Shown here: in pieces, positions 5,733 through 8,864 of the stretch
Layout of the letters: each line of letters opens with the position of its first letter
How positions within the stretch are numbered: the first letter of the stretch is position 1
Assembly (NCBI GenBank): GCA_021163425.1
Contig: JAGGWS010000036.1
Location: 1 to 46,421 of the forward strand
Source of the DNA: Candidatus Omnitrophota bacterium
GTDB lineage: Bacteria; Omnitrophota; Gorgyraeia; Duberdicusellales; Duberdicusellaceae
Length of the DNA: 46,421 nt
Direction: 5' to 3'
The notes under the pieces: generated by a model
What the model was told of the DNA's origin: nothing
The model's input: the letters and a program-made list of their open reading frames with translations, nothing else
Database searches by the model: none
Made by a program: the position numbers and the translations under genes

Positions 5733-6980
5733 ATGGATATCGGAACCTTAAAGGAGATGAAGATTTCTGAACTTAATAAGGTGGCTAAAGAGCTTGCTAT
5801 TAACGGGGTAAGTGGTCTTAGGAAACAAGATTTGATATTTAAGATACTGCAAGCTCAGGCAGAAAAGGAAGGTTTAATGTTTGGCTCAGGGGTTTTGGAG
5901 GTTTTATCTGAAGGTTTTGGCTTTTTAAGGTCCCCTAATTATAATTATCTTCCTTCTCCTGATGATATTTATGTTTCACCTTCTCAAATAAGGAAATTTT
6001 CCCTTAAGACTGGAGACACTGTAAGTGGTCAGATAAGGCCACCCAAGGAGAACGAGAAGTATTTTGCTCTCTTGAAAGTAGAAGCAGTTAATTTTGAAGA
6101 CCCTGAAGAAGCTAAAGAAAGGGTTCTCTTTGATAATTTAACTCCTATATATCCTAAGGAGAGGTTTATCTTAGAGACTAAGCCTGAAGAGGTATCTACC
6201 CGGATTTTAGACCTGCTCGTTCCTATTGGTAAAGGTCAACGTGGTCTTATAGTTGCTCCTCCTTATAGTGGGAAAACCGTTCTTCTTCAGAAAGTAGCTA
6301 ATTCCATTATGGCTAACCATCCCGACGTTATTCTTATAGTGCTTCTTATCGATGAACGGCCTGAAGAAGTTACTGAAATGAAGAGGATAGTGAAGGGTGA
6401 AGTCATAAGTTCTACCTTTGATGAGCCTGCAGATAGACATATTCAGGTAGCTGAAATGGTTTTGGAGAAAGCAAAAAGGCTGGTGGAACATAAAAGAGAT
6501 GTAGTTATTCTCTTGGATAGTATTACCCGGTTAGCTCGAGCCTACAATCTGGTAGAACCTCATTCAGGAAGAATTCTTTCTGGAGGTATAGACTCCAATG
6601 CTTTACATAAACCGAAGAGGTTTTTTGGGGCAGCCCGAGCAGTTGAAGAAGGAGGCTCTTTAACTATAATTGCTACAGCTTTAATAGATACCGGTTCCCG
6701 AATGGATGATGTAATATTTGAGGAATTTAAAGGCACAGGAAATATGGAGATAACTTTAGACAGAAATATCTTTCAGAGAAGAATTTACCCTTCAGTGGAT
6801 ATTAAACGTTCAAATACTCGGAGAGAAGAGCTCTTGCTTCATCCTGATGAATTGAGGAGAATCTGGATTTTAAGAAAAGTTTTAAATGATTTAAATTCTA
6901 TAGAAGCAATAGAACTTTTGATTGAGAAGATGTCTAAGACTAAGTCCAATGCTGAATTCTTGCTTTCAATGAATCAGTAA
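5733..6980 (+). CDS. rho: Transcription termination factor Rho
   Basis: 415 residues, normal size. The N-terminal Rho-N helical segment ([20 protein letters not shown]) is followed by the cold-shock-like RNA-binding domain ([22 protein letters not shown]). The RecA-type ATPase has Walker A APPYSGKT (Lys181; most homologues have APPKAGKT), the [10 protein letters not shown] segment, Walker [17 protein letters not shown], and the Q-loop and R-loop regions ([27 protein letters not shown]). A strong AGGAGGAAGG precedes the ATG. It probably ends the coaE-rho transcription unit; only a 4-bp weak hairpin follows. Confidence 0.96.
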
Positions 6981-7125: not shown

Positions 7126-7178
7126 TTTTATGCTGTTAAGCGTGCGCCCGTAGCTCAACAGGATAGAGCATCTGCCTT

Positions 7179-7843
7179 CAAAGAGGAGCCTCTATGCGGA
7201 AATGAACGCATAGAGTGGATGTGGCTGTATGCAAGGAAGTCCTCCTTTTTCTTAAGGAAAAGGATGGATCACTTGCAGGAAACCTTTATATCCAAGGGCG
7301 GAGGCAAAATTTAAAAGGAAAGGAGGTGAGAGTGCATCATACAAAGGTCAAAGCGGATATAGGGTTTGCAAATGTTATCTCTGATTTAGTAGAAAAAGGA
7401 TATGTGCCTTGTATTCCCATTTCTGAGCACCAACATTACGACTTACTAGCGGTGTTAAAAGATGGGGAGGTTGTAAAGATTCAAGTAAAATATGCGCATC
7501 TCAAAAAGAATGGTACTATTGAGGTGAAGTTCAGAACAAGTTGGGTAGATAAGAAAGGAACTCACACTCGACGCTATAAAAAGGAGGATTTCGATTACTA
7601 CGCTATCTATTGCCCTGAGAAAGAGAAGGTACTGTATGTACCCAATGCTCCTAATTGCCCAAAAGCTATCCGCTTTGACAAACCTAGCAACAATCAGAGT
7701 AAGTACATAAAATGGGCCTCCGCTTACTTTGATATAAAGGGATCCTCAGAGACTATACGCCGCAGGCCTGAGATGGCTAAGACATAGTCCAGACCACAAT
7801 CCCGATATGTTTGTCGGGAGCCGAAGAAATTCGGAGTGGTAAG
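7179..7843 (+). mobile_element. Group I self-splicing intron in the tRNA-Arg anticodon loop
   Basis: 665 nt, inserted after U7178 and ending in G7843, as group I introns require. P1: exon CCUU (7175-7178) with GAGG (7183-7186), with a U.G pair at the splice site. P2: 7190-7198/7207-7215, 9 bp. P3: GUGGC 7221-7225/GCCGC 7759-7763. P4: UGCAAG 7230-7235/CUUGCA 7272-7277. P5: hairpin 7244-7263. P6: 7283-7292/7731-7740, 10 bp. P6a: 7298-7305/7716-7723, 8 bp, with the endonuclease gene in its loop. P7: GACUAU 7751-7756/AUAGUC 7784-7789, within CAGAGACUAUACG and AAGACAUAGUCC, the classic R and S elements. P8: 7766-7768/7775-7777. P9: 7801-7805/7814-7818. P9.1: 7821-7825/7830-7834 with a GAAA tetraloop. 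The tRNA position suggests subgroup IC3. Confidence 0.93.
7332..7787 (+). CDS. Intron-encoded PD-(D/E)XK homing endonuclease (I-Ssp6803I-like)
   Basis: I start at GTG 7332, five bases after a perfect AGGAGG (7321-7326), giving 151 residues. The frame is open back to 7215, but those 39 codons are the ribozyme P3-P6 core. The sequence begins VHHTKVKADIGFANVI and has HYDLLAV...KIQVK, placing Asp37, Gln51 and Lys53 as the nuclease triad. Then come a FRTSWVDKKGTHTRRYKKEDFDYYAIYC segment and Tyr/Pro-rich strands. This matches the group I intron-associated PD-(D/E)XK family whose type is I-Ssp6803I from the Synechocystis tRNA-fMet intron, about 150 residues. The expected role is to cleave intronless tRNA-Arg alleles and drive homing. 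The stop codon lies inside P7', so the last ~24 codons double as P6a', P6', P7, P3' and P8. Confidence 0.88.
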   Translation: MHHTKVKADIGFANVISDLVEKGYVPCIPISEHQHYDLLAVLKDGEVVKIQVKYAHLKKNGTIEVKFRTSWVDKKGTHTRRYKKEDFDYYAIYCPEKEKVLYVPNAPNCPKAIRFDKPSNNQSKYIKWASAYFDIKGSSETIRRRPEMAKT

Positions 7844-8013
7844 CTAAGCAGAGGGTTGCAGGTTCGAGTCCTGCCGGGCGCGCTAATTCCATCTTTTTCC
7901 TAATCCTTCTTGCATTCTTTCCCTTATTTTAAAAGGATAAGAAGACATATTTTCTTAATCAGGAAAATTCATTACTATTCTTTGGAGAGTTTTCTAAAAT
8001 TTTCTTCTTTAAA

Positions 8014-8066: not shown

Positions 8067-8864
8067 ATGGTGGGAATAATCGGTTGTGGAAATATGGGTA
8101 GAGCTTTACTGGGAGGTTTGCTCTCTAATTACAGAAAAGAAAGAGTATTAGTATACGATAAAGACAGGAGTAAGCTTTCTAAATTAAAAAAAGATTCTTT
8201 GTTAAGGAAGGCTAAGAATCTGGAGGAGGTAGTAAACAAATCTTCTACCATCATAATTGCTGTTAAACCTCAAGATATAAGAGAAGTTTTAGAAGGAATA
8301 AGGGGATTTTACCGCAATCAACTTATAATTTCTATAGCTGCGGGGATAACTACTTCTTTCATTGAGAAAGCTATCGGCAAAAAGACCAGAGTAATAAGGG
8401 TAATGCCTAATTTACCAGCTAAGGTAAAAAGAAGTGTAACCGGGCTCTCTAAAGGTAGATATGCGAGTTTAGCTGATTTAAAAAAAGCAAAAAGAATCTT
8501 TAAGAGTATAGGAAGTTGTCTAGTATTAAAAGAGAAGTATATAAATCCCCTTACTGCTATTTCTGGAAGTGGTCCTGGCTATATTTTCTATTTTCTCTAC
8601 TGCCTGGAAGATTCTGCACTAAGTTTAGGTTTTTCTAAAGAGGAAGCTCATTTTTTAGTTTTTAATACTTTTAAAGGTGCAGGAGAACTCATTTCTGAGA
8701 AAGATGATTTCTTAGAGTTGGTAGAAAAGGTGGCTTCTCGCCGAGGAACTACTGAAAAAGCTCTTTTGTATTTTAAAAAGAAGAATTTTAAAAGAATAGT
8801 TAAAGAAGCTATAGAAAAGGCTAATAAGAGAGCAGAAGAGTTGAGTAAACGCATCACGACTTAA
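8067..8864 (+). CDS. proC: Pyrroline-5-carboxylate reductase
   Basis: 265 residues, typical length. The N-terminal Rossmann motif is GIIGCGNMGRALLGG. IIIAVKPQDIREVL and RVMPNLPAKV follow in the NAD(P)-binding domain. The C-terminal dimerisation and substrate domain contains AISGSGPGYIFYFLYCLEDSALSLGF and VASRRGTTEKAL, equivalent to the family's TSPGGTT signature, with RR in place of PG. It catalyses the final step of proline synthesis with NAD(P)H. No strong Shine-Dalgarno precedes the ATG. It is the first gene after the tRNA, and mtnP follows after a 61-bp gap. Confidence 0.93.
   Translation: MVGIIGCGNMGRALLGGLLSNYRKERVLVYDKDRSKLSKLKKDSLLRKAKNLEEVVNKSSTIIIAVKPQDIREVLEGIRGFYRNQLIISIAAGITTSFIEKAIGKKTRVIRVMPNLPAKVKRSVTGLSKGRYASLADLKKAKRIFKSIGSCLVLKEKYINPLTAISGSGPGYIFYFLYCLEDSALSLGFSKEEAHFLVFNTFKGAGELISEKDDFLELVEKVASRRGTTEKALLYFKKKNFKRIVKEAIEKANKRAEELSKRITT

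Follow-up and report, generated by a model that had tools for sequence, protein, structure and literature searches.

Group I introns in the tRNA-Leu(UAA) genes of cyanobacteria and plastids are inserted after U34 and usually lack an endonuclease, and bacterial tRNA introns usually belong to subgroup IC3. In Synechocystis, a 655-nt group I intron of tRNA-fMet encodes the 150-aa endonuclease I-Ssp6803I (PMC1995217; 2OST), and in Bartonella bacilliformis the intron BbgpI interrupts tRNA-Arg(CCU) in a gene of about 308 nt (PMC7717549), a length that leaves it without an endonuclease of the size discussed below. tRNA-Arg-TCT itself is interrupted in Thiomargarita nelsonii (PMC4853749), where that paper left the structure and type of the intron undetermined; the interrupted gene spans 324 nt as calculated from its coordinates and is thus too short for such an endonuclease ORF. 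For Beggiatoa (BOGUAY), a putative group I intron in tRNA-Arg-TCT is attributed to MacGregor et al. 2013, as cited in the same paper (PMC4853749).

We analyzed a 46,421-nt stretch (termed the window) from Candidatus Omnitrophota, contained as contig C20 in a 1.19-Mb metagenome-assembled genome (MAG) of 78 contigs and 93.6% completeness. A split tRNA gene lies between rho (5733–6980) and proC (8067–8864). Joining 7144–7178 to 7844–7882 yielded a tRNA-Arg(tct) with every stem paired in ARAGORN, the acceptor stem ending at 7881, followed by the discriminator G at 7882 without an encoded CCA. The unjoined window gave no tRNA call with ARAGORN; with introns allowed, the program proposed a tRNA-SeC, which we regard as a false call. 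The original prediction is confirmed on several points: U34 is followed by a group I intron that is complete, the joined tRNA folds perfectly, a standard scanner misses the gene, and the junctions lie at 7178/7179 and 7843/7844. The features of the locus are the following.

7144–7178, + strand: 5' exon of tRNA-Arg(UCU), ending at U34 (ARAGORN on joined exons; the CTT boundary is common to relatives)
7176–7179, + strand: P1 5' strand, C32 U33 U34 plus intron base 1 (U34.G in 58 of 58 relatives)
7179–7843, + strand: group I intron, 665 nt, terminal G (covariance model from other phyla; covariation)
7184–7188, + strand: internal guide sequence AGGAG (P1 paired in 99.6% and P10 in 94% of cells, 58 relatives)
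7190–7215, + strand: P2 hairpin, 7190–7197 with 7208–7215 (8 of 8 pairs changed on both sides)
7221–7225, + strand: P3 5' strand, partner 7759–7763 (4 of 5 pairs changed on both sides)
7230–7277, + strand: P4/P5 stem and loop, 7230–7235 with 7272–7277 (5 of 6 pairs changed on both sides)
7283–7291, + strand: P6 5' strand, partner 7732–7740 across the endonuclease ORF (9 bp in the window)
7321–7326, + strand: candidate ribosome-binding site AGGAGG of the endonuclease ORF, 5 nt before GTG (sequence)
7332–7787, + strand: predicted PD-(D/E)XK homing endonuclease ORF, 151 aa, GTG start, TAG stop inside the P7 3' strand (PF11645, fold, pN/pS)
7732–7740, + strand: P6 3' strand, within the endonuclease ORF (complementarity)
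7751–7756, + strand: P7 5' strand, partner 7784–7789 (98% paired)
7759–7763, + strand: P3 3' strand (covariation)
7765–7778, + strand: P8 hairpin, 7765–7768 with 7775–7778 (2 of 3 tested pairs changed on both sides)
7784–7789, + strand: P7 3' strand (pairing, compensated variant)
7793–7840, + strand: P9 region, closing stem 7793–7797/7836–7840 (pairing in the window)
7800–7805/7814–7819 and 7821–7825/7830–7834, + strand: P9-region hairpins (pairing in the window; both in the consensus structure of model R1, see below)
7844–7882, + strand: 3' exon of tRNA-Arg(UCU), starting at C35 (ARAGORN on joined exons)

Compared with the described systems, the locus shares host tRNA and anticodon with the Beggiatoaceae introns, themselves putative group I, and the insertion position with the tRNA-Leu(UAA) introns, which reside in a different tRNA. 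It resembles the I-Ssp6803I intron in being a group I intron of a tRNA gene and in encoding a PD-(D/E)XK endonuclease that shares the fold, but the tRNA and the site are others and the endonuclease sequences are only distantly similar. With the alphaproteobacterial tRNA-Arg(CCU) introns it has in common the arginine tRNA, the group I type and a tRNA hidden from scanners, but these have a CCU anticodon; the window genome contains a separate, intact tRNA-Arg(CCU). The proposal that the UCU host and insertion site may form an unrecorded combination did not survive, since interruption of tRNA-Arg-TCT has been described in Thiomargarita and Beggiatoa (PMC4853749) and recurs in Omnitrophota. In the open-access literature, no paper describing a tRNA-Arg(UCU) intron with a PD-(D/E)XK endonuclease was found.

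The Rfam group I model RF00028, put forward earlier as a check, gave no match in the window at its gathering threshold, nor did relaxing the cut-off to E = 5 yield one, and by itself it would wrongly refute the intron, because this intron family lies below the Rfam cut-off. The miss is attributable to the long ORF insert together with sequence divergence. An ORF-less relative from Cytobacillus (L197) scored 29.8 bits (E = 1.9e-4), still below that cut-off, and the gathering score is a curated threshold rather than a property of the molecule. Two weak Rfam matches in the window, HPnc0260 and CRISPR-DR33, fall below their own cut-offs and were taken as chance. As Rfam is silent on the insert, group I identity was tested by homology. 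For the 3' core we built a covariance model (R1) exclusively from tRNA-Arg(UCU) introns outside Omnitrophota, 22 in all and one of them on a viral contig; it matched 7734–7844 at E = 2.2e-15 as its sole match in the genome.

We assessed the helices in an alignment of 58 homologous introns with the ORFs removed, where cells count sequences and not independent events: P2 was paired in 98.9% of cells against a shuffled maximum of 78% (121 cells changed on both sides), P3 in 99.3% against 70% (107 cells), P4/P5 in 100% against 74% (109 cells) and P8 in 100% against 91% (26 cells). The mean complementarity of P6 in relatives exceeded that of all shuffled partners, and P7 was nearly invariant, with a compensated change from GACUA/UAGUC to GGCCA/UGGUC in two loci (L167, L169). 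The P5 extension, P9 and P9.1 as first registered failed across the alignment; as the P9 registers are not kept there, we claim P9 from the R1 consensus only. Of the core helices P1 to P9.1 that had been considered pairable by eye, P2, P3, P4/P5 and P8 hence stand by covariation and P6 by complementarity, whereas P1 required another register. The group I core, comprising P3-P7-P8 and P4-P6 with pseudoknotted P3 and P7, could be located with covarying helices, and on this comparative evidence the insert in tRNA-Arg(UCU) is a group I intron.

The GGAG of the guide (7185–7188) pairs with C32–U34 and the first intron base as P1, and its AG can pair with C35 U36 as P10; AGGAG being complementary to C32–U36, P1 and P10 together span the whole anticodon. 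The U34.G7186 pair was kept in 58 of 58 relatives in the register CUU+N/GGAG, and the window intron ends in G, in agreement with the predicted U.G pair and terminal G. The accompanying CCUU/GAGG register of P1 fits the window but not the family, with U34 paired in only 29 of 58 relatives. It was probably off, the conserved register being CUU+C/GGAG.

Taken together, we consider it very likely that the locus is a mobile, self-splicing group I intron with a homing endonuclease in tRNA-Arg(UCU). In the folded precursor tRNA, the anticodon loop would base-pair with the guide AGGAG; attack by an external guanosine after U34 would free this nucleotide, which would in turn attack after the terminal G and so ligate the exons to the UCU anticodon. 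At the DNA level, family knowledge suggests that the endonuclease would cleave tRNA-Arg(UCU) genes lacking the intron, at the region of the anticodon, and that repair of the cut gene would copy the intron in.

The best surviving alternative is that splicing has been lost, leaving the split gene a pseudogene whose role is filled by an intact copy missing from the MAG. With 93.6% completeness in 78 contigs a second UCU gene is possible, and it may sit in a gap. Set against this, no cloverleaf stem or core helix is disrupted, the core shows covariation among relatives, the UCU anticodon is absent from the 35 other tRNAs of the MAG, and no intact copy of the tRNA-Arg(UCU) anticodon arm was found elsewhere in it. 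AGA, moreover, is the commonest arginine codon, accounting for 382 of the 764 in the 34 window genes. An intact second UCU gene alongside a degenerate core here had been named as the finding that would overturn the intron, and neither was found; we regard a pseudogene as improbable. Under the favored reading of an active intron, the lack of a second tRNA-Arg(UCU) together with the use of AGA for half of the arginine codons implies that splicing is probably essential, provided the MAG misses no UCU copy, and a single intron explains the apparent lack of an AGA tRNA in this genome.

The original prediction did not mention the ORF at 7332–7787. Its product matches PF11645 (PDDEXK_5; E = 3.3e-29, Pfam) and, by sequence, 2OST at E = 3e-4; the predicted structure (mean pLDDT 84) matched 2OST in Foldseek with E = 4e-10 and a TM-score of 0.70. 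The catalytic D and QxK motif is present, with D37, Q51 and K53 invariant in 16 homologues. Judged by homology and modeled fold, the product is an I-Ssp6803I-family homing endonuclease of the PD-(D/E)XK type, and its ORF is intact. pN/pS was 0.18–0.26 for pairs with the window ORF and 0.18–0.31 among five ORFs, with synonymous sites near saturation, indicating purifying selection with conservation of the active-site motif; this conservation suggests a working enzyme. The ORF is inserted in P6, and its last codons overlap P6, P7, P3 and P8, with the stop in P7. We rejected the tail SSETIRRRPEMAKT as a functional extension of the endonuclease, since its codons result from translating the ribozyme core. 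The tail is not conserved as protein: L103 and L105 read the region in a different frame, and L088 and L098 lack it. It also has low confidence in the structure model.

A second alternative, that a free endonuclease cassette broke the tRNA without any ribozyme, draws on cassettes of the same endonuclease family that apparently did so on viral contigs (L203, L217, L225). The window insert, however, contains both the guide sequence and the full group I core but no replacement tRNA, so that we give this reading almost no weight. It is just as implausible that misassembly or misbinning introduced a chimera or a foreign contig: the sequence does come from a MAG, but the neighboring proC shares 89% protein identity with the gene that flanks the empty site in a genome of the same genus, and independent assemblies from other sites contain the element as well.

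The intron is real and largely ordinary, and the evolutionary series around it is unusually clear. The site, with CTT before and CTAA after the intron, is interrupted in at least 14 of the 384 Omnitrophota genomes searched, the window included; in a scan of GTDB genomes, 58 of the 80 best loci had it interrupted. The same site and the same endonuclease family were found together in at least eight phyla (Omnitrophota, Elusimicrobiota, Pseudomonadota, Ignavibacteriota, Chloroflexota, Bacteroidota, Bacillota and Acidobacteriota); in the two Ignavibacteria the 3' exon starts with CGAA. The window intron is a member of this widespread bacterial family, whose host gene is already on record and which as a whole lies below the Rfam cut-off and is unseen by tRNA scanners. 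Closer to the window, an intact tRNA-Arg(UCU) adjoins the same proC in the genome of the same genus (G001), and of three other family members two have an intact gene (G002, G004). The nearest intron found by DNA, 73% identical, belongs to another family of the same order. In the endonuclease tree, the window falls into an Omnitrophota/Elusimicrobiota clade (support 100/98); the main clade of intron-borne enzymes from other phyla (96/91) is separate. The empty sites together with this placement are consistent with horizontal spread, undated.

Relatives of the endonuclease also occur outside introns. On viral contigs, 32 of 42 loci have a free copy no more than 200 nt from an intact tRNA-Arg(UCU), and the same arrangement was found at eight bacterial loci and in the phages Herod and Sf-FR1; the scan patterns were built from an alignment containing the proteins of these two phages, so that these locus counts are no neutral census. 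At three loci (L098 of Omnitrophota, L197 of Cytobacillus and the viral L235), an ORF-less intron resides in the tRNA with the endonuclease gene after it. In the viral case, on an IMG/VR contig (2121–2421), a 229-nt ORF-less group I intron splits a tRNA-Arg(UCU) carried by the virus, and the endonuclease gene lies 118 nt past the start of the 3' exon. All phage introns known in 2014 lay in protein genes according to a review (PMC3984707), to which this locus, as read from its contig, would be an exception. The three viral cassettes mentioned above, likewise on IMG/VR contigs, comprise the endonuclease and a complete tRNA-Arg(UCU) within the anticodon loop of an Arg-like tRNA. No ribozyme core was seen in them; apparently the broken tRNA was replaced by the spare copy.

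We lean slightly toward reading these arrangements as four states of one endonuclease lineage aimed at the anticodon region of tRNA-Arg(UCU): free beside an intact tRNA, mostly in phages; free beside an ORF-less intron; inside the intron, as in the window and most bacteria; and in a cassette with a spare tRNA within a broken one. They would represent intermediates of collaborative homing, as reportedly put forward by Bonocora and Shub in 2009, in which phages would carry the gene and introns would have captured it at least twice independently. With free phage enzymes at one end and intron-borne ones at the other, all at one exact site, this natural series makes ideas on the origin of mobile introns testable.

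Several other group I introns were met in the course of the searches. A core matching R1 was present in 111 of the 384 Omnitrophota genomes, with most best matches in tRNA-fMet, whose introns, with or without endonuclease, are very common in this phylum (L053–L082, L245–L273). One tRNA-Leu(UAA)-like gene of Omnitrophota (L247, G384:C47) carries a group I intron at the same position, between CTT and AAAA. Five tRNA-Tyr(GUA)-like genes of Omnitrophota (L087, L091, L101, L107, L109) have the anticodon loop split by short group I introns, with RF00028 E-values of about 1e-21 to 1e-23 for the first three, and a free-standing PDDEXK_5 gene upstream; we know of no report of tRNA-Tyr(GUA) as a group I host. 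A contig titled Halobacteria archaeon (L157) is probably misbinned, as its endonuclease groups with Ectothiorhodospiraceae and the tRNA order is similar. A second group I-like core of the window genome lies in the 23S rRNA gene (L121, G000:C5 near 524), with the P7 motif CAGAGACTGTACGCC within the LSU match. In a genome of the same family, a 23S rRNA group I intron (L048, G003:C15; RF00028 E = 3e-18) shares an identical 22-nt P7/P3 stretch with the window intron.
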